The notes below the pieces were generated by a model, which was not told the origin of the DNA, made no database searches, and was given only the letters and a program-made list of their open reading frames with translations. From the NCBI GenBank assembly GCA_022482495.1, contig JAKVPA010000013.1, positions 1 through 32,737 on the forward strand: a stretch of DNA of 32,737 nucleotides, read 5' to 3'. A program made the translations under genes and the position numbers. This document shows, piece by piece, positions 4,293 to 26,636 of this stretch. The stretch's first letter is position 1; every line of letters starts with the position of its first letter. The DNA comes from Sphaerochaeta sp. GTDB lineage: Bacteria; Spirochaetota; Spirochaetia; Sphaerochaetales; Sphaerochaetaceae.

Positions 4293-5170
4293 TCATTTCA
4301 TTGCAGCTTTACTGTACCCGGAAAGCATGTACTTTTGGAATATGAAAAACAAGATTACCACCGGGAGGATCGCCATGACCGCGCCCGCCATGATCTCATG
4401 ATTGTTCATCGTCCCCTGGCCGGCAAACGTCTCCCGCAACTTGGCCAATCCGACCGTAAGCACACGATGGGATTCCTCTTTGGCGATGATTTTCGGCCAG
4501 AAATAGCTGTTCCAACCGGAAGTGAAGGTGACCAACGTGACGGTGAACAACGTCGAGCTGCACATCGGCACCAAAATCTTGGTGATGATCCCCACCTTCC
4601 CAACCCGTCGATCTTCGCCGCATCGATGTAACTGTCATCAATAGAGAGGAATGTCTGCCGAAGCATGAAGATGTAGTATGGACTGACCGCTTCCGGAAGG
4701 ATCAATCCCAGATAGGTGTCTGTCAGCCCCCAATGGGCGAACATCACGTAGATGGGGATGAACGTCACCTGCAACGGAATCATCAGGGCTCCGAGCACCA
4801 CCAAGAACAATGTGTTCTTTCCCCGGAAATTTCCTTTGGAGAAGCCATATGCCGCGAACACCCCGGTGACGATCTGGCAGACCAAAATACCTGCGGTCAT
4901 GATGATCGTATTCATGTAATACTTTGCGAACTTCACTTTCCGAAGCACGTTGGCATAATTCTCAAAATGGAATTCCTTCGGCCAGAACGTCGGCTTGAGA
5001 AGCAACACCTCATCCTGGCTTTTCACGGAAGTGATCAGCATCCAGTAAATCGGAAAAAACGCGATCACCGTGACGGCAATGGCCAACAACCACTGCACCA
5101 CGCTGATGATCCGTTTTCTTCGTACCGCACGCTCGTTCCGTTCTGTCATGGTCAATGATGAATTACGCAT
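4293..5170 (-). CDS. ABC transporter permease, UgpE-like (one frameshift)
   Basis: Second inner-membrane permease of a CUT1-family sugar/G3P importer. The start at 5170 is preceded by GAGGAAAG; hydrophobic helices begin with VVQWLLAIAVTVIAFFPIYW. The reading frame breaks near 4591-4600, inside the EAA loop that docks the ATPase: YIDAAKIDGLGR in one frame continues as VGIITKILVPM in another. Restoring one G in an AGG run joins the halves to a normal-length protein ending SGYSKAAMK. I think a sequencing deletion is likelier than a real mutation. No ATPase (MsiK/UgpC) gene lies in the operon, so a shared ATPase encoded elsewhere is needed. Confidence 0.85.
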
Positions 5171-5180
5171 CTTTCTTTCC

Positions 5181-6086
5181 TCACGTATCATAGTTCACCC
5201 TGCCATTGGAAAGCTTCATCGTGGAAGCGGTGATGATAAGGAGCAGGGCAAAGAATGCCAACGCCATGACGGCGGCACGATCCATGCGGAAATCCTCCAT
5301 CGCATAGGAATAAATCTGGTAGACGAACACTTCCGTCGACCGGTTCGGCCCGCCGCCGGTCAGAATATCCACGCTCTGGAACACCTTCATCGAGGAGATG
5401 AACGTGGTGACGAACAGGAACAACGTCGTCGGACTGAGCATGGGGAGGGTGATGTGTCGGAGTTTCACCCAATAGGACGCCCCATCAAGATCTGCTGCTT
5501 CGTAATAGTCCGATGGGATGCTCCGCATCGCTGCAAGATAGACGATCATCCCGTATCCGATGGCCCGCCAGCCGGTCAGCATCAGCACGGAAATCATCGC
5601 CCACCCCGGCTTTCCCAGCCAATCGATCCGTTTCCCGCCAAGTCGACTAATGAAGTAGTTCAACACCCCGTTGTCCGTATTGAGAATCCACAGGAAAATG
5701 ACGGCCGCCGAGCTCATGGCGACATACTTCGGCATGAACACGATGGCACGAAGCGCCCCGAAGCCACGATGCATCGTGTTGAAGATCAACGCCAGCAGCA
5801 ATCCTCCGAGCAAGGTAATTGCAAGTTCTCCACCGGAATAGATGAACGTCACTTTCAGGGAATTGAGCAGATATTTTTTCCCTGACCCGTTGAACAACCA
5901 TTTCCAATTCTTGAGACCTACATACTCGTAATGATCGTTCAGCAGGTTCCAGTTGGTGAAACTGATCTGTATCAGCTTCACAATGGGAAAATAGGTGAAC
6001 AACAGAATCAAAACCAGCGCTGGTACCGTGCACCCGAAATCCTGCAGATGGTCAAGCGTGCGCGGTTTGATGCCTTTGAACGCCAT
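5181..6086 (-). CDS. ABC transporter permease, UgpA-like
   Basis: 301-residue first permease of the CUT1 importer. The start at 6086 is chosen because AGGAGG lies 9 nt upstream; an earlier in-frame ATG would overlap that ribosome site. Six or so hydrophobic segments are visible (first at about 18-40, VPALVLILLFTYFPIVKLI). The EAA loop starts at about residue 194 (DYYEAADLDGASYWVKLRHI) and ends in a LP, as needed to contact the ATPase. It forms a heterodimer with the UgpE-like protein. Neighbours suggest G3P or a glycerophosphodiester as substrate, though the family also carries sugars. Confidence 0.9.
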   Translation of the reverse strand: MAFKGIKPRTLDHLQDFGCTVPALVLILLFTYFPIVKLIQISFTNWNLLNDHYEYVGLKNWKWLFNGSGKKYLLNSLKVTFIYSGGELAITLLGGLLLALIFNTMHRGFGALRAIVFMPKYVAMSSAAVIFLWILNTDNGVLNYFISRLGGKRIDWLGKPGWAMISVLMLTGWRAIGYGMIVYLAAMRSIPSDYYEAADLDGASYWVKLRHITLPMLSPTTLFLFVTTFISSMKVFQSVDILTGGGPNRSTEVFVYQIYSYAMEDFRMDRAAVMALAFFALLLIITASTMKLSNGRVNYDT

Positions 6087-9940: not shown

Positions 9941-11197
9941 TCACGCCTCCTCCGTCTTCACCGTAACGGATGTGATGCCCGGATACCCGGTGAAACTCTT
10001 CTTCTGCAGGATCACCTGCTCCATCTCACCCGGGGCAAGCACCTTCTTCTTCAGATGCATCACCCGCGTGCCGTCATAGTATACGGATACGTACCGGCCT
10101 TTGTACACATCGCCCACCCGGAAGCGCACCGTCACCAAGTCAGCCATGTGGGAAACATCCAGGGACTGCGGGACGGTGTACCGCACTCCGTCGGTGGCCA
10201 CGATGGGGATCTCCTGTTTGATCTGTGCTCCGCTTGCCACATACCGGGCGGCGCTCCGACCGGCCAACGCCGCCTCTTCGGAGACGTAATCCACCAGATC
10301 ATGGACATGCAGCACGTTGCCGCAGGCGAAAATGCCATCCTGGCTGGTCTGAAGCATATCATCCACCACCGGACCGTTGGTCACCCGGTTGATGGCAACC
10401 CCTGCGCCACGGGACAGTTCGTTCTCCGGGATCAGGCCGACGGACAGCAGGAGCGTGTCACAGTCGTAGTGTTCCTCCGTCCCAGGGATCGGCTTGCGAT
10501 GCTCGTCCACCTTGGCCAGCGTCACCCCGGTGATCCGCTCCTTGCCCTGGATGTCCACCACCGTGTGGGAAAGCTTCAACGGGATGCCGTAGTCGTCCAG
10601 GCACTGGACGATGTTCCGCTTCAGGCCACCGGAGAACGGCATCAACTCGGCGACCACCTTCACCTTGGCGCCTTCCAGCGTCATGCGCCGCGCCATGATC
10701 AGGCCGATGTCACCGCTGCCCAGGATCACCACACGGGAACCAACCTTGCAGCCTTCGATGTTCATCAGCCGCTGGGCCGTACCGGCGCTGTAGATGCCCG
10801 CCGGCCGGTAGCCCGGGATGTTCAGCGCGCCCCGGGGCCGCTCGCGGCATCCCATCGCCAAAATGATCGCCTTGGCGCTGATGGTAACCACGCCCTCCTC
10901 CCGGTTGATGTACGTCACCTGGTGCGGCTGGACATCCAGCACCATCGTGTCCACCAGAGCGGGGATGTGCCGTTTTGTGACCATGTCAATGTATCGCTGG
11001 GCGTACTCCGGTCCGGTCAACTCCTCCTTGAACGCGTGCAGTCCGAATCCGTTGTGGATGCACTGGTTGAGGATACCCCCCAGCTGATGGTTCCGCTCTA
11101 CGATCAAGATGTCCTGGATTCCAGCGTCTCGTGCCGCCACGGCAGCGGACAATCCGGCCGGGCCTCCTCCGATCACCACGATGTCATGCGCGTTCAT
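9941..11197 (-). CDS. FAD/NAD(P)-dependent oxidoreductase, partner of GlpA
   Basis: 418-residue pyridine-nucleotide-disulfide-type flavoprotein. FAD site IVVIGGGPAGLSAA near the N-terminus, second nucleotide site RVVILGSGDIGLIMARRM in the middle, and a late GIFACGNVLHVHDLVD flavin-closing motif. It lacks a CxxC redox disulfide near the first flavin site, so it is not a thioredoxin reductase. Start at 11197 (or 11200) follows AGGGGGG and overlaps the glpA end by 14 nt. In related clusters this protein probably passes electrons from the dehydrogenase to NAD(P) or another carrier; that is inference from gene order. Confidence 0.9.
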   Translation of the reverse strand: MNAHDIVVIGGGPAGLSAAVAARDAGIQDILIVERNHQLGGILNQCIHNGFGLHAFKEELTGPEYAQRYIDMVTKRHIPALVDTMVLDVQPHQVTYINREEGVVTISAKAIILAMGCRERPRGALNIPGYRPAGIYSAGTAQRLMNIEGCKVGSRVVILGSGDIGLIMARRMTLEGAKVKVVAELMPFSGGLKRNIVQCLDDYGIPLKLSHTVVDIQGKERITGVTLAKVDEHRKPIPGTEEHYDCDTLLLSVGLIPENELSRGAGVAINRVTNGPVVDDMLQTSQDGIFACGNVLHVHDLVDYVSEEAALAGRSAARYVASGAQIKQEIPIVATDGVRYTVPQSLDVSHMADLVTVRFRVGDVYKGRYVSVYYDGTRVMHLKKKVLAPGEMEQVILQKKSFTGYPGITSVTVKTEEA

Positions 11198-12628
11198 CAT
11201 GATCCCCCCTGAGCAGTTCCGAACCCTTCTGGTTCTTGCAGACCGACTCCATCCGCATCTTCCTCTTCTCACAGAGCAGTTCCATGGTGCGCGGCGTGCA
11301 GAACCCTGCCTGGCACCGGCCCATCCCCGCTCTGGTCCTCCGTTTGATGCCATCCATGCTGACCGCACCCAGCGGCCGGGTGATGGCGTCGATGATCTCT
11401 CCTTCGGAGACCTGTTCGCACCGGCAGACGATCGTTCCGTACTCCGGATGTTCCTTGATCAGCTTGGTCCGCTCCTGAGGATCCATATCCCTGGTGCGGA
11501 GCATACCCTTGCGTGTGGCGATGAAGTCCTTCTTCTCCGACGCGCCTGCAGCTTGCGCGACCATCTTCGCCACCTCCTCCCCGATGGCGGGGCTGCAGGA
11601 CAGGCCGGGGCTTTCGATGCCGGCGGCGTCAAAGAACCCCGGAGCCCCGGAGGCCTCGCCGATGACGAAGTCCCCTCCCTCTTCATGGGCGCGGAGTCCG
11701 GAGAAGCTGGTGATCACCTTGCGCATCGGAATCTCCTTGACCGGACAGCGATCCCATTTTCGCCACTTCGGCAAGATCGTCTGCATAGGTGGCCGTATTC
11801 TCCCTGTCCTCCACCACTTTGCTGGTCGGACCAACCATCAGGTTGCCATGGACCGTCGGAGTGACCAACACCCCTTTGCCCGCAGCGGTCGGCAACTGGA
11901 AGATTGTATGGGAGACGTAATCCCCCACCTCTTTGTCAAACAGCAGGTAGTTTCCCCTGCGGGCGATGATCTGTATCGGCGTGTCACTGACCATGTTGTG
12001 GAACGAGGTCAGCGTACACCCCGGCGGCATTGACCACAAAACGGCTGGTCATGGACGACCCGTCGGCAAACGAGAGTTCGTATCCTCCCTGGGTTTTGCG
12101 CACCGCATCCACCGCGGCATTGAAACGGAACTCCACCCCGTTGGCATAGGCGTTCTCGGCAAACGCGATGGTGATGCCGAACGGACAGACGATGCCGCTG
12201 GTCGGGCAGTACAACGCGCCGCAGACGGCGTCACTCAGGTTGGGTTCCAGCGCCCGGGCTTCATCCCCGGAAAGCAGCTGCATCCGCTCCACCCCGTTGG
12301 CAAGCCCCCGCTCGTACAGCGCCTTGAGTTTGGGCAGCCCCTCGGGGTCGAAGCAGACCACCATCGCGCCGTTCTGCCGGTAGTCGAAATCCAGTTCGCG
12401 GGAAAGGGCAGGCATCATGGCGCTGCCCCAGATGTTCAGCTTCGCTTTCAGCGTACCAGGTTCCGGATCATAGCCGGCATGGACGATGCCACTGTTCGCC
12501 TTGGACGTGCCGCTGCACACGTCCTCCCCTTTTTCCACCAGACAGACGGACAACGCGTACCGGGAAAGGCTCCGCGCGATGGAGCACCCCGTCACGCCCC
12601 CTCCGATCACCACCACATCATACTGCAT
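11184..12628 (-). CDS. glpA: GlpA-type glycerol-3-phosphate dehydrogenase with BFD-like [2Fe-2S] domain (two frameshifts)
   Basis: FAD-dependent dehydrogenase oxidising G3P to dihydroxyacetone phosphate. FAD motif VVVIGGGVTGCSIARSL at the start, DAO-type core (NAAGVYADL, FQLPTAAGKGVLVTPT, ITSFSGLRA), and a C-terminal BFD-like domain with CRC, then GRCQAGFC giving four cysteines. The frame is broken twice by apparent one-base insertions: near 12000-12001 (extra C on the coding strand before HNMVSD) and near 11753-11755 (extra G before the PVKEIPMRKVITSF stretch). Correcting both gives 480 residues, normal for this fused form. GGAGG lies 8 nt before the chosen ATG. Expression is probably governed by the leader terminator just upstream. 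Confidence 0.88.
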
Positions 12629-12649
12629 GCATGACACCTCCAGACGCAT

Positions 12650-13454: not shown

Positions 13455-14944
13455 TTACCAGGAAGTGTGGTACTTATCCGTCAGGTAGCGGACGTAGGCG
13501 CCGGCATCCAACGAGGCGCCGGTGACCTTTTTGAGCAACGCTTTGGGAGGATACAGCAACCCCTGGGAATACACCTTCTCCCTCAGCCAGGAGACAATCG
13601 GGAAAAGATCACCACGGGCAAGCAGGTGGTCGGTATCCAAATCCTTCCGGAGCGTCTCCCAGATCTGCGCGCCGTACAGGTTTCCCAGCGCGTAGGTGGG
13701 GAAGTATCCGATCTCCCCGCTGGCCCAGTGGACGTCCTGCAGGCACCCCAGCCGGTCGTCGGTGATCTCCAACCCCAACAGGTCACGGGAAGCTTCGTTC
13801 CATGCCTGGGGGATGTCCGGAACGGCAAGCGTTCCTGCGATCAACTGCTTTTCCAGACGGTAGCGCAGCATGATGTGCAGCGAATAACTCACCTCGTCGG
13901 CGTTGGTGCGGATCGGCGTGCGCTCCACCTTGTTCACCGCATGGTAAAACTCCGCCAAGGTGACGTCTCCCACCTGTTCGGGGAACGTGTCCCGGAACAA
14001 CGGGAAGTAATGCATCCAGAACGGCAGGCTCCGGCCGATGATGTTCTCCCACAGCCGGGACTGGGATTCATGCATGCCGTACGAGGCGCCGCCGGCAAGG
14101 CTGGTTCCCTTCAGCCGTCCCTGGGAGGCGGTCTGCTCGTAGATGGCATGTCCGCACTCATGGACGGACGAGAAGAAGCTGTCCATCACCGAGGGATCGG
14201 TGTACCGGGTGGTCACCCGCACATCATCCTCCCCCAGGGCGGAAGTGAACGGATGGGTGGAGACACCCCTGAGCCCCGGGTGAAATCAAAGCCCATGTCG
14301 GTCATCACCCGTTGGGCGAACTGATCCTGCAGGTCAATGGGATATGGCTGGCGGAGGAACGCGTCATCAACCTTCTGGGCGGAACGCTCATCGACCAGCG
14401 AGACCAGAATCGGACGGAGGGCATCAAACAGCGGATCAACCTCTCTGGTGGTCATCCCTTCTTCGTACATATCCAGGAGTGCGTCGTACCGCCCCGTCTT
14501 TCCACCGCTGAGCAGGGACGCCTGCTCACGGGTCAAGGAAACGAGCTCTTCCAGGGCCGGGACGAACGACGCGAAATCGTTGTCCTTCCTGGCTTGGAGC
14601 CATACCACATACCCTGTGGTTTTGGCTCGTGACAATCTTCCCACCAAATCCTCGGGGAGCGCTTTGCCCAATCGATAGGAACGGGAACGGACCCTCACCA
14701 GAGCGGCGGCAAAAGGATCGTCCTCCTTCCCTTCCAACCGGGAAAGGACCTCCCCCATCACCTCTGAGCTCTCCCGCCGATGGATCTCCCGCTGGAGGAA
14801 TTCCATCTGTCTGCCCCGCTCATCACTCTCCGCCGCCGGCATGTACAGCTCGGAATCCCACTCCATCACCGCGGCGATATGCTCCAGCATGGTGATCTCG
14901 CGATCCATCGTTTCCAACCGTCCCAACGCCTGTTCCCTGGTCAT
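13455..14944 (-). CDS. Carboxypeptidase Taq, M32 metallopeptidase (one frameshift)
   Basis: Zinc-dependent cytoplasmic carboxypeptidase of family M32, which removes C-terminal residues from peptides. The zinc motif HECGH is present (SSVHECGHAIYEQ), with a downstream glutamate in HESQSRLWEN, and TNADEVSYSLHIMLRY typical of M32. The frame breaks near 14271-14277: the first part runs to DMGFDFTRG, and the remainder resumes as GVSTHPFTSALGEDDVRVTTRY. Adding one G to a GGGG run restores about 496 residues, the usual length. AGGAGG precedes the ATG at 14944. It follows the thrS terminator by 12 nt and may depend on readthrough. Confidence 0.88.
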
Positions 14945-15012: not shown

Positions 15013-16773
15013 TTACAACTGTTCCTTGGAATCAACCTTGGCGCGCACTTCCTTCAGGAAGTCCGCCACAGCCAGGCCGTTGGCCTGCTTGCCGTTCCGG
15101 TAGCGCACCGAGACCTGCTTGTCATCCATCTCACGCTGGCCGACGATCACCATGTAAGGAATCTTCAGGTTCTGGGCGTTGCGGATCTTCATGTTCATCC
15201 GGTCATCGGAGAGATCGGAGGAAACACGGAAGCCGGCGTCCTTGCACTGCTTCTCCACTTCCTTGGCGTAGTCGTCGTACTTGTCGCTGACCGGAATGAT
15301 CTTGATCTGCTCCGGAGAGAGCCAGGGCGGGAACGCTCCGGCGTACGTCTCAAGCAACACGCCGAAGAACCGTTCGATGGATCCCAGCAGGGCGCGATGG
15401 ATCATGTACGGCTGTTTCTCCTTGCCATCCTTGTCCACGTAGGTCATGTGGAACCGCTCCGGCAGGTTGAAGTCAAACTGCACGGTGGAGAGCTGCCACT
15501 CACGACCGATGGCGTCCTTGACCTTCAGGTCGATCTTCGGCCCGTAGAAGGCTCCGCCGCCCTCGTCGACATCGTAGTTCAGCCCTTCCTTCTCAATGGC
15601 TTTGCGCAGCGACTCCGTCGCGGCGTCCCATTTCTCCTTGGCGCCGACGGACTTGTCCTTCGGCTTGGTGGACAGGTAGGCGTGGAATTCGTTGAAGCCA
15701 AAGCTCTTCAGCATGTGCAGGCTGAAGCGCAGCACTTCGATGATCTCACCTTCCATCTGCTCTTCCGTGCAGAAGATATGGGCGTCGTCCTGGGTGAATC
15801 CACGCACACGGAACAGGCCGTTCAACGCGCCGGACTGCTCATAGCGGTACACCGTGCCGAGCTCCGCCCATCTGCAGGGAAGATCCCGGTAGCTCTTCGG
15901 ACTGTTCATGTAGATCATGATGTGGAACGGGCAGTTCATCGGCTTGACGTAGTAATCCGCCTTGTCCATCACCATCGGGGGATACATGTTCTCCTTGTAG
16001 AACCCAAGGTGACCGCTGGTCTCCCACAGCCAGGACTTGCCGACATGCGGCGTATAGACCATCTCGTATCCGTTCTTGTAGTGCTCCTGTCTCCAGAAGT
16101 CCTCGATGACCTCGCGGACACGCGCCCCCATCGGATGCCAGTACACCAGACCGGGACCGGCTTCCTCATGTAGGCTGAACAGATCCAGATCCTTGCCCAA
16201 CTTGCGATGGTCACGCTTTGCGATCTCCGCAAGGTGGTCCAGGTACAGTCTGAGCTCCTTGGCGTTGTTCCAGGCCGTCCCGTAGATACGGGTCAGCATC
16301 TGGTTGTGCTCATCCCCTCTCCAGTAGGCTCCGGCGATCTTCATCAGTTTGAACGCGTCGGCATGAAGTTCCTTGGTGGAAGCGACATGCGGTCCCCTGC
16401 ACAGGTCGGTGAATCCGCCCTGGTTGTAGATGGAGACCGTCTCCCCCTCGGGGATGGCGTCAAGGAGTTCCAGCTTGTACTTCTGGTCCTTGAACATCTC
16501 CCTGGCTTCCTCGCGGGAAACCTCTTTGCGGACGAACGGTTTGTTCTGGGCGATGATTTTCTTCATCCGCTCGGTGATCTCGTCCAGATCCTTGTTCTCC
16601 AGCGGTCTGGGCAGTTCAAAATCATAGTAGAACCCATCCTCGATCGCCGGTCCGATGGCGATCTGCGCCGATGGGAACATCTCGAGCACCGCTTCCGCCA
16701 TGACGTGACTCATGCTGTGCCGGATACGCGCCAATTTCTCCTCTTGGGGAGTCTGCGGTTTATTCGTTGCCAT
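15013..16773 (-). CDS. thrS: Threonyl-tRNA synthetase lacking the TGS domain
   Basis: 586-residue class II synthetase charging tRNA-Thr. It starts directly with the N2 editing domain: HSMSH (19-23) and CRGPH (125-129) give the HxxxH and CxxxH editing-site residues. The catalytic core has the zinc ligands in MNCPFH, DDAHIF and HRALLGS, and class II motif 3 in that last region. The anticodon-binding domain ends the protein (IKIIPVSDKYDDYA to the C-terminus). The usual N-terminal TGS domain of about 60 residues is missing. The start at 16773 is firm: GGAGG lies 5 nt upstream, and the sequence further upstream is the T-box terminator. Expression is controlled by the T-box leader. Confidence 0.96.
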   Translation of the reverse strand: MATNKPQTPQEEKLARIRHSMSHVMAEAVLEMFPSAQIAIGPAIEDGFYYDFELPRPLENKDLDEITERMKKIIAQNKPFVRKEVSREEAREMFKDQKYKLELLDAIPEGETVSIYNQGGFTDLCRGPHVASTKELHADAFKLMKIAGAYWRGDEHNQMLTRIYGTAWNNAKELRLYLDHLAEIAKRDHRKLGKDLDLFSLHEEAGPGLVYWHPMGARVREVIEDFWRQEHYKNGYEMVYTPHVGKSWLWETSGHLGFYKENMYPPMVMDKADYYVKPMNCPFHIMIYMNSPKSYRDLPCRWAELGTVYRYEQSGALNGLFRVRGFTQDDAHIFCTEEQMEGEIIEVLRFSLHMLKSFGFNEFHAYLSTKPKDKSVGAKEKWDAATESLRKAIEKEGLNYDVDEGGGAFYGPKIDLKVKDAIGREWQLSTVQFDFNLPERFHMTYVDKDGKEKQPYMIHRALLGSIERFFGVLLETYAGAFPPWLSPEQIKIIPVSDKYDDYAKEVEKQCKDAGFRVSSDLSDDRMNMKIRNAQNLKIPYMVIVGQREMDDKQVSVRYRNGKQANGLAVADFLKEVRAKVDSKEQL

Positions 16774-16804
16774 ATTTCCTCCAAAATCTCTCTCTTCCAA
16801 TCCT

Positions 16805-16892
16805 AAAAAAAAGAAGCCTTCATGCCTTCGCCTTCCGGCTACGGCCTTAAGTCCCGTATGCCCGGCAAGGACGAAAGCATCAAGGCTTCCGC
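16805..16892 (-). terminator. Terminator stem of the thrS T-box leader
   Basis: GAAGCCTT at the 5' side pairs with AAGGCTTC before eight T, with further pairing inside (ATGC..., TCCTTGCCGG against CCGGAAGG). It overlaps the 3' half of the antiterminator, as in T-box switches, and ends about 32 nt before the thrS ATG. Confidence 0.85.
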
Positions 16893-17092
16893 GGTTCCAC
16901 CCTGCTTCCTTTCCCCACATGAGGAAAGACGCTCATTGCAGCGTATCTCGAACGCCACCCGGCCCCATTTACTTGGTTTTCCGTTCAAGGGGCGGCTCAA
17001 AAGGGGTTTTCATCGGAACGTCTTCCGGTCCCTTTCACCCGAGAGGACCTTCTCTACGAAGCCGGCATCCGACTACTCGTCTTTCTCAACGC
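16805..17092 (-). promoter_or_regulatory. T-box riboswitch, thrS leader
   Basis: The leader carries the conserved T-box sequence AGGGTGGAACCGCG (16890-16903), whose TGGA bulge pairs with the 3' end of uncharged tRNA. Upstream is a Stem I-like region: AAAGACGAGTAG near 17075-17087, an AGAGA segment near 17055, GGGTGAAAGG near 17031-17040, then GATGAAAACCCC. An ACC threonine codon (about 17005-17007) sits where the specifier is expected; a one-base shift would read AAC, so the exact triplet is uncertain. Downstream is the terminator. Uncharged tRNA-Thr should favour readthrough. A weak promoter with TTGACT near 17124-17134 could start the leader. Confidence 0.93.
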
Positions 17093-17130
17093 CTGTAACA
17101 AGAATGGTACGGAAGAGGAAAATAGTCAAG

Positions 17131-23706: not shown

Positions 23707-24906
23707 TCACTTCGCAGCGGCCTTGGCTTCCTTGTGCTTTTTCTGGGAAGCGGTGATCCAGTTGAGGAACACCGGAGCGAGGAAGTTGGAACTGTACGTT
23801 CCGACCACCACGCCGAAGATCATGTTGATGGCGAACAGCTTGATGTCTCCGCTTGCCAGAATGGCCAACGGAAGGACGGCCAGCACGGTGGTCACCGAGC
23901 TGAACATCGTCCGGCTCATGCTCTGCGTCACCGACTGGTCGATCAAGCTGTCGAACGCGGCGTCCTTTTCCAGCTTCACGTTCTCACGGACACGGTCGAA
24001 AATGACGATTGTGTTGTTCAGCGAGTATCCGATGATGGTCAACAGCGCGGCGACCGTCGTGCTGGAGAACTCAAAGCGAAGCAGGCTGATGAATCCGAGC
24101 AGCATGAACACATCGTGGAACAACGCCAGGATGGAACTGACCGCATAGGCGAAACGGAACCGGATCCAAATGTAAACCAAAATCAGCGCCAGCGCCACAA
24201 TGATGGAAAGGATCGAGCCCTTCAACAGGGAGGAGCTGAACTTCGGTCCGACGTAATCGCTCTGCAGGACGACCAGGTTCTGCGCACCGAATGCGTTTCC
24301 CAACGCAGTGCTGATCGCTTCCTCCATCGAAGCCTGGGTGTCCCCTTCCTTGATGCCGACACGGATCTGGAAGATCTGGTCAGCGGCAGCGCCGACCGTC
24401 TGGATCTTCACGTTGCCCAGCGACTCCAAAGCCTTGCGGACCTCGTCGATCGTCACCGTACCACCGTTCGCGAAATTCAGCACGGTCCCCTTCTCACTCA
24501 GCGTGGCAGGGAATCCGTATCCGGAAAGGATGTTGGCTGTCTTCAGCGAACCATCCACCGTGGTCACCGTTACTCCGGAGATCTTTGCCAGACCGGCAGC
24601 GACATCAGCCACCGTCGGATAGGTCACAGGATCGAAGACGTAGTTCTGCACGCCTTCCTCACCACGCACTTCCACCGTGATGGAGGAAGAGGAGATGGAA
24701 AGCGTAGCGCTCTCTGCCCCGGTGTACGTGACGGTCATGCCGGTCGGAGCAAGCTGCACCCGTTCGCCAAGACCACTTTCGAAGTCAATGCCCCGGTTGA
24801 ATCCACCATAGGCAATGAAGCTGATGATTCCCACCAGGAGCAGCACACAGGCCAGCGCCACGGAATACCAGCGGAACTTGATGACAGGAATATTTTTCTT
24901 AAACAT
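23707..24906 (-). CDS. secF: Protein translocase subunit SecF
   Basis: 399-residue inner-membrane protein that, with SecD, uses the ion gradient to aid late steps of Sec export. N-terminal FRWYSVALACVLLLVGIISF helix with GIDFESG, large periplasmic part, then five helices with SLNNTIVIFDRVREN and the GVVVGTYSSNFLAPVFLNW end typical of SecF. It overlaps secD by 8 nt, so is coupled to it. The periplasmic domain (about residues 35-220) is longer than in E. coli SecF. Confidence 0.96.
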   Translation of the reverse strand: MFKKNIPVIKFRWYSVALACVLLLVGIISFIAYGGFNRGIDFESGLGERVQLAPTGMTVTYTGAESATLSISSSSITVEVRGEEGVQNYVFDPVTYPTVADVAAGLAKISGVTVTTVDGSLKTANILSGYGFPATLSEKGTVLNFANGGTVTIDEVRKALESLGNVKIQTVGAAADQIFQIRVGIKEGDTQASMEEAISTALGNAFGAQNLVVLQSDYVGPKFSSSLLKGSILSIIVALALILVYIWIRFRFAYAVSSILALFHDVFMLLGFISLLRFEFSSTTVAALLTIIGYSLNNTIVIFDRVRENVKLEKDAAFDSLIDQSVTQSMSRTMFSSVTTVLAVLPLAILASGDIKLFAINMIFGVVVGTYSSNFLAPVFLNWITASQKKHKEAKAAAK

Positions 24907-26636
24907 TTTGGTCCTTCCTCCAGCCGATGTGCAGCTTTGCGTTCTTTCTGTCCGTCACCGCCGCATCCATGATCAGATGGGAGACGAACAGCGCGGTGAA
25001 CAGCGAACTGACAATACCGATGGCCAACGTGTTGGCGAATCCCTTCACCGCGGAAGACCCGAGGGAGGAAAGCACCAACGCGGCGATGATCGTCGTGATA
25101 TTGGAGTCCATGATGGTCCAGAACGCCTTTCCATAGCCTGCCTGTACGGCTGCCTGGGGGCTCTTCTTCTGGCGGAGTTCTTCTTTGATACGTTCGTTGA
25201 TGATCACGTTTGCGTCCAGCCGCCATGCCGAGGGTCAGCACCAGACCGGCAACGGAGGAGAGCGTGACGGTGAAGTTGAACGCCGACAACACGCTTACCA
25301 TGATGATCAAGTTGAAGAGCAAGGCGAGATCCGCCACCAACCCGGTGACGTTGTAGTAGGCGAACATGAACACCATCACCAGAATCAGACCGATCAACAA
25401 CGCCTTGAAGCCTTGGCTGACGGAATCTTCTCCCAGCGTTGCGCCGACGCTCTGCTGGTTGGCGACGGTCAGCTGGATGGGAAGCGCGGCGGTCTTCAGC
25501 ACGATGGCCAAATCATTGGCTTCCTTCTGGCCGAATCCGCTGATCTGCACGCTGGCGCGGATCGGTTCGTTGATCGTCGCGATCGACTTGACGTTTCCGT
25601 CCATCACAACGGCCAGGGACTTGCCCACATTGGTCGAAGTGAGTTTGTAGAACAAATCACCACCCGTGGTGTCCAGCTGGAAGTTGACCACCGGTTTTCC
25701 GGTGATGCCATCCGTCGAGGTGGTGGCGCTTTCCAGATGCTCGCCATCCAACCCGATCTCTTCGTCCAGCACGACGAAGCTCTTCAGCTCGTCGATGCCG
25801 TACTCATCATTCTCATAGTATCCCGTGGCGACCTTGCCGGCAGGCAGGAAAGACGGTTGCTTGATGGCGCCCGTCGCCGTGTACACCTCGCTGGGATTCG
25901 CCTTGAAATACTCCTGAAGCTGGGTGGTCAGGTCGGTATCGACCATCTGGAACGTCAGGGAGCCTTTGCCGCGCAGGAACGAGTTGACCCGTTCCGGATC
26001 GGAAGCGCCAGGAATCTCGATCAAAATCTGGTCGGTGCCCTGCAACCGGATTTCCGGTTCGCTGACACCAAACTGGTTGATCCTGTTCTGCAGGATCTCG
26101 ATGTCCTGGGAGACCAGATCAGTCACCTCGCTCGCCTTAGCCGGCGAACCTTTCTTGGCTTCGTACGCCTTCACGTCGGCATCCAGCAAAATGCTCATGC
26201 CTCCACGGAGGTCAAGTCCAAGCTGAAGCGCCCGGTTGGACAGCTTCTTGGCCGATACCAAACTGGTCCGATAGTTGGACTCGATGGTGTCGAACAGATC
26301 CTGTTCCGTATAGAAGCCCCGAAGCAACGAGGATACCGTCCACTTGGAAGGCACCTTCTCCTTGGAGGCTTTGTACGTTGCCTTGGCGGACGCCACCAAG
26401 TACCGGTACTCACTGGGCACCGGCGCGTTGCCGTCACTCGCGACGAGTTCCTTCAATGCGCGCAAATCCCTTGTGGCCTGACCGCGGGCATACTCTTTGA
26501 TCTGTACGTTCGAGCCTGTTGCCAAGTCCTTGGTAGTCTGCGGCACGAACCAGTACCACTTCACCGTCGGATACAGGAACGCGACGCACATCACGACTAC
26601 CAGAATCACAATGACCAGACGACTCCGTTTACTCAT
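24899..26636 (-). CDS. secD: Protein translocase subunit SecD (one frameshift)
   Basis: Partner of SecF. Signal-anchor helix (LVIVILVVVMCVAFLYPTVKWYW), periplasmic P1 region with LGLDLRGGMSILLD, QNRINQFGVSEPEI and QILIEIPG, then six helices. The frame breaks at about 25219: VAGLVLTLGMA in one frame continues as DANVIINERIKEELR in another once one inserted base is removed, giving 578 residues and the GMAVDANVIINERI motif shared by all SecD. As this motif lies in the functional core, a sequencing insertion is much likelier than loss. GGAGAG precedes the ATG. Confidence 0.93.

Follow-up and report, generated by a model that had tools for sequence, protein, structure and literature searches.

A class I T-box riboswitch upstream of thrS in Spirochaetia and a probable replacement of the gene behind it

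Among the closest described counterparts of the leader analysed here are the class I T-boxes (RF00230) in front of the threonyl-tRNA synthetase gene thrS of Bacillus and Clostridium; in Bacillota, thrS often carries two or three of them in tandem (PMC12452182). For spirochaetes, a 2008 survey found T-boxes in none of six genomes (PMC2494555), a 2013 survey named only Firmicutes, Actinobacteria, Chloroflexi, Deinococcus-Thermus and Geobacter as T-box carriers (PMC3766115), and a 2023 Borrelia study gave the TPP riboswitch as the sole characterised riboswitch of the phylum. No spirochaete T-box was found in our search of the open literature, and no first sighting is claimed. A sequence-only reading of the window, as we call the whole analysed stretch of 32,737 nucleotides from Sphaerochaeta sp., had proposed a threonine-specific T-box controlling thrS, and comparison with related genomes supports this proposal. 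From the leader anatomy, covariation, specifier, tRNA match, competing hairpins, distribution, gene trees and the exchange at the locus, all read from sequence, it is very probable that a canonical class I T-box controls thrS, that this arrangement is old and was inherited mainly vertically in Spirochaetia with repeated losses and without import of a clostridial thrS, and that the coding sequence alone was swapped in the other two genomes of the genus (G001 and G002).

The leader, its tRNA and the competing hairpins

RF00230 aligned over the whole model (positions 1-219 of 219) to window positions 17098-16864 on the minus strand, the strand of all leader features described below, with 89.0 bits and an E value of 4e-20, a significant match of the kind the sequence-only reading had anticipated. 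The score is 4 bits lower than the gathering score of the family (93 bits), so that a default Rfam scan of the window at the gathering threshold missed the T-box and reported 16S rRNA alone. This threshold is a curation cut-off and not a biological feature, and among the 72 Spirochaetota genomes with a T-box it was exceeded in 25 and missed in 47. No second T-box was seen in the 2.25 Mb of the window genome (G000). The boundaries given earlier for the element, 16805-17092, proved accurate, since Stem I begins with base 17092 and the U-tract ends at 16805.

Stem I with the specifier loop (16995-17092) was assigned from the Rfam alignment and its helices 1-6 covary, bearing out the Stem I-like elements noticed before; its motifs are a GA/K-turn-like base, GACGAGUA, and AGAGA and GGUGAAA in the distal loop. 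Stem II (16963-16992), assigned from the same alignment, corresponds to helix 7 with both-side changes in 6/6 pairs and 72% of cells paired, and is followed on its 3' side by a IIA/B-like region at about 16961-16945. Stem III was read directly at 16929-16908 (feature 16908-16934 with its flank), and helix 10, which represents it, covaries with 90.6% of cells paired. Its 5' flank is the purine string GAGCG (16934-16930) and its 3' flank AA (16907-16906), in agreement with the pattern of RRRxG and AA around Stem III described for T-boxes (PMC7583486). The T-box sequence itself, AGGGTGGAACCGCG, is present as claimed at 16903-16890, both by direct reading and in the RF00230 alignment, with the bulge UGGAACC at 16899-16893. 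Judged by its sequence, the leader is a canonical class I (transcriptional) T-box riboswitch with all motifs intact.

The antiterminator (16865-16905), predicted from folding and alignment, consists of helices A1 and A2 with a G-U wobble at the base of A2, a pair found in 26/26 spirochaete sequences and tied to the rejection of aminoacylated tRNA in the structural literature (PMC7583486). Folded with its 7-nt bulge it reaches -16.9 kcal/mol, and taken alone its stability is ordinary (z -1.1), as expected for a conformer that is stabilised by tRNA. The competing terminator directly before thrS was likewise recovered by folding and covariation (16805-16890), as a hairpin at 16890-16812 and a tract of eight U at 16812-16805, with the ATG of thrS at 16773. 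It folds with -49.4 kcal/mol (z -7.6; 0/200 shuffles as good), and because its 5' arm reaches into the 3' half of the antiterminator (16905-16865), the two hairpins are mutually exclusive. When 26 spirochaete leaders were aligned without structure information, compensatory changes on both sides were detected in 33/46 pairs of the T-box helices, with 89.5% of cells in standard pairs, and in 22/32 pairs of the terminator. Sliding the pairing partners by 1-3 columns as a control reduced pairing in the T-box helices to 41-52%, and 0/500 shuffles reached the observed T-box covariation values.

The specifier codon is ACC (threonine) at 17007-17005, as the earlier claim of a threonine codon in the specifier region required. 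Its three columns (A92, C93 and C94) are invariant in 26/26 spirochaete T-boxes, whereas the flanking bases differ among them, indicating that ACC is the true codon and not a shifted reading. The window genome contains tRNA-Thr genes with the anticodons GGU, UGU and CGU, of which GGU is the only one to read ACC by Watson-Crick pairing, and a gene for this cognate tRNA-Thr(GGU) is located at G000:C5:20597-20668. All three tRNA-Thr genes found have U as discriminator base 73 and do not encode CCA; with CCA added, which is assumed, the 3' end UCCA is complementary at all four positions to UGGA of the T-box. U73 also occurs in tRNA-Thr(GGU) of nine relatives, and the T-box base opposite N73 in the relatives is mostly A, with G in two, allowing a wobble, and U in two (G012 and G029), where the U-U mismatch with U73 counts against the reading preferred here. 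Since every tRNA-Thr examined has U at this position, N73 offers no usable covariation and was dropped as an independent test.

Upstream of Stem I, an alignment of 50 spirochaete leaders led to a likely sigma-70-type promoter (17101-17129), with TTGACT as -35 element (17129-17124), a 17-nt spacer and CATTCT as weak -10 element (17106-17101). In these 50 leaders a hexamer resembling TATNNT and a TTGACA or TTGACT lie at a fixed distance upstream of Stem I; given this conservation, the T-box is most likely transcribed from a promoter of its own, situated between thrS and the GAF-domain gene upstream of it. A generic promoter scan of the leader region in the window did not reach its threshold. Downstream of the terminator, a Shine-Dalgarno sequence GGAGG (16778-16782) precedes thrS (15013-16773, minus), which encodes a threonyl-tRNA synthetase (ThrRS) of 586 aa. 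Pfam assigned the domains tRNA_SAD, tRNA-synt_2b and HGTP_anticodon to this protein, found no N-terminal TGS domain in it, and the thrS product is the only full-length ThrRS match in the window genome. The M32 carboxypeptidase gene that follows (13455-14944, minus) is split into overlapping frames at 14944-14213 and 14222-13455; as the two parts are in line in relatives, this reflects a frameshift or an assembly error. Apparent frameshifts were also observed at 4293-5191, 11184-12649 and 24735-26636 (-), affecting an ABC permease, an FAD-dependent oxidoreductase and secD, and suggest indel errors of the assembly.

The course of regulation, with tRNA binding, charge sensing and readthrough, can be modelled on established T-box biology. 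RNA polymerase would start just 5' of the leader and transcribe it. Under threonine shortage the leader would bind uncharged tRNA-Thr(GGU): the anticodon GGU would pair with the Stem I specifier ACC, the elbow would rest against the distal loops of Stem I, and the free 3' UCCA would pair with UGGA of the T-box bulge. This pairing would stabilise the antiterminator, by which the strong terminator is blocked and thrS transcribed. The 3' end of charged tRNA-Thr would be unable to dock, the terminator would form and transcription would halt before thrS.

Distribution in Spirochaetota and origin of the unit

A T-box was detected in 35/61 relatives of the window genome and, with stricter filters, in 72/393 Spirochaetota genomes. 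Of the T-boxes fetched from relatives, 26/30 stand before thrS; a scan of genome contigs gave at least 80 neighbour loci. Within Spirochaetia, the class of the window genome, at least 18 families contain a thrS T-box, which argues for an old and mainly inherited feature and against a recent local acquisition. Genomes without a thrS T-box often share the same ThrRS type, which points to repeated losses (or gains) in Spirochaetia. Many genomes of the class share the window's gene order around thrS. The contig belongs to a spirochaete host and is not a stray piece of a Firmicutes genome, a placement that would have spoken against the original proposal.

In a tree of 180 ThrRS sequences the window sequence is located within a clade of 52 spirochaete ThrRS (support 82), and spirochaete and Chloroflexota sequences form one superclade (support 99) apart from Firmicutes. 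A tree of 69 sequences under a mixture model again placed it in a spirochaete clade (support 97) adjoining Chloroflexota and at a distance from typical clostridial sequences, with two atypical clostridial sequences joining this neighbourhood; support for the main-type spirochaete clade, 82 with 180 sequences and 97 with 69, is moderate. The ThrRS tree suggested earlier as a check has thus been built. The nearest non-spirochaete ThrRS are those of Anaerolineae (L108-L110, L113 and L115, including Leptolinea tardivitalis), in which T-boxes are found directly before a TGS-less thrS. The statement that T-boxes are overwhelmingly a Firmicutes device is incomplete, and the common occurrence of the T-box-thrS unit in Anaerolineae and Spirochaetia fits it poorly.

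Of the other explanations, the one that survives best is a transfer of the unit of T-box and TGS-less thrS from Anaerolineae-like Chloroflexota to an early spirochaete, or in the reverse direction, followed by vertical descent. The position of the Anaerolineae T-boxes, immediately upstream of the ThrRS genes closest to those of spirochaetes, and the superclade support of 99 are what such a transfer would leave behind, yet an older shared ancestor predicts the same picture, the T-box sequences are too short for dating or orienting a transfer, and the support for the sister group is moderate and differs between the two trees. We regard this history as slightly less than an even prospect. A separate observation concerns four genomes of the window's family (G009, G035, G025 and G020; loci L208, L209, L210 and L211), which possess another ThrRS type, 40-42% identical to that of the window and grouping within Chloroflexota; no T-box core was found upstream of these four thrS genes.

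Besides those before thrS, T-boxes with other specifiers were observed in spirochaetes. An UGG (Trp) specifier is present in T-boxes before a gene for a TrpX-like ABC substrate-binding protein (L015:1745-1502 (-) and L019:126-372 (+)) and, read from a weaker alignment, before trpB (L335:3563-3808 (+)). In family f11, an apparent tyrosine specifier (UAC) occurs in three T-boxes (L001:1501-1753, L244:1501-1748 and L247:1501-1782), whose targets, named by sequence reading, are a sodium/solute symporter, an AMP-binding enzyme and a tryptophanase/tyrosine phenol-lyase-like enzyme; these may constitute a possible regulon for tyrosine uptake and degradation. The window's own family has T-boxes whose specifier appears to be GUC (Val) or AUC (Ile) (L026:1718-1501 (-), L212:2648-2892, L213:3471-3710, L215 and L250) in front of large fusions that read like helix-turn-helix, cupin and AMP-binding acyl-CoA synthetase, an unusual T-box target. 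In G102, from another class of Spirochaetota, a divergent T-box with 54 bits and a largely unaligned Stem I (L347:3100-2910 (-)) precedes a class I aminotransferase-like gene.

Probable exchange of thrS behind the T-box

G001 and G002 retain the T-box before thrS in the same order as in the window (hydrogenase genes, GAF gene, T-box, thrS, M32 carboxypeptidase, pgsA), and the neighbouring genes are 41-81% identical to those of the window. Their ThrRS, however, shows 46% identity to the window ThrRS, compared to mostly 70-78% for other genera of the family, and a search of 297 Spirochaetia genomes gave no match over 49% identity to this type. Constraining it to join the main spirochaete clade was disfavoured (AU p 0.03, for a group picked after the identities had been seen). 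The T-boxes of G000 and of G001/G002 are identical over 44 consecutive nt across the antiterminator, in the expression platform; this stretch is common to genomes of this genus only, the longest exact run with thrS T-boxes of Firmicutes or Chloroflexota being 20 nt. As platform and syntenic locus are shared and the ThrRS is nevertheless only 46% identical, a foreign thrS most likely replaced the coding sequence behind the resident T-box.

Alternatively, T-box and thrS might have been replaced together by recombination through the flanking genes, with the likeness of the T-box to that of G000 arising from convergence. The T-box tree does not reject a grouping of G001/G002 with Firmicutes and Chloroflexota (AU p 0.48), a result obtained with short sequences and an arbitrary rooting, and the same tree was not decisive as proof of retention, as three clostridial T-boxes move among the spirochaetes. 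Nevertheless, the nearest non-self T-box to G001/G002 on this tree is that of G000, which is also among the nearest by alignment, and together with the antiterminator run confined to the genus this makes a joint replacement improbable.

A second ThrRS type (type II; L202, L203 and L205) is found behind T-boxes in families f18, f27 and f29, with the M32 gene adjacent. It was not accepted as a proven second foreign type; since kinship with the main type is not rejected (AU p 0.069), its foreign origin is only suggestive. Another candidate for a second swap, G393 (L254; 46% identity across a partial N-terminus), was rejected, its ThrRS being the main type of its own family with 65% identity to L106. 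Whether the thrS T-box represents an ancient resident platform of Spirochaetia, with promoter, leader and terminator fixed, behind which foreign thrS genes were inserted more than once, appears to us evenly balanced, the insertion being clear in G001/G002 and suggestive for f18, f27 and f29. If true, the regulator would be evolutionarily more stable than the essential gene under its control.

For the window itself, the joint acquisition of leader and thrS from a clostridial donor, as put forward in the sequence-only reading, could draw on the existence of thrS T-boxes in Clostridia and on the position of the G001/G002 ThrRS and the second spirochaete ThrRS type near Firmicutes in the trees. 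The window ThrRS, in contrast, belongs to the spirochaete clade near Chloroflexota, and forcing the main spirochaete and typical clostridial sequences together was rejected (164 log-likelihood units worse, AU p 3.9e-10; this test and that on the G001/G002 ThrRS were done with 69 sequences). Moreover, clostridial thrS products have about 65-100 extra N-terminal residues that are absent here, and thrS T-boxes were seen in at least 18 Spirochaetia families. With the ThrRS trees, the AU test and the T-box-thrS units of Anaerolineae, the clostridial donor is left unsupported and very unlikely. Least credible of all is a decayed T-box that has lost regulation, for although the score just under the gathering cut-off and the weak -10 hexamer of the window genome would suit it, the functional motifs are all intact and compensatory changes abundant in relatives.

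Comparison with known systems

Mechanism and family are textbook, and the new part is distribution and history. The thrS T-box in at least 18 families would make tRNA-sensing attenuation an old trait of a diderm phylum as well, and bears on the question whether T-boxes spread from Firmicutes or were already present in a common ancestor. In architecture, bulge, competing terminator, threonine specificity and target the leader resembles the thrS T-boxes of Bacillus and Clostridium, from which it differs as a single T-box, in Spirochaetota, and before a TGS-less ThrRS. A typical clostridial unit combines the T-box with a TGS-containing ThrRS, whereas the window ThrRS lacks TGS and does not group with typical clostridial enzymes. 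The thrS T-boxes of Anaerolineae such as Leptolinea tardivitalis (L109) are also single and directly before a TGS-less ThrRS of the same superclade, but their sequences have clearly diverged (mean identity 0.47 to spirochaete T-boxes vs 0.56 among spirochaetes), and these genomes carry 4-7 T-boxes compared to one in the window genome. A literature search found no description of a gene replacement behind a retained tRNA-sensing leader, and the G001/G002 locus would provide a concrete case of an essential gene replaced while its riboswitch was kept. It resembles gene displacement in situ (xenologous replacement) in that a thrS of foreign type is located in a syntenic locus, with the difference that in G001/G002 the replaced gene sits behind a tRNA-sensing leader that appears to have been retained.
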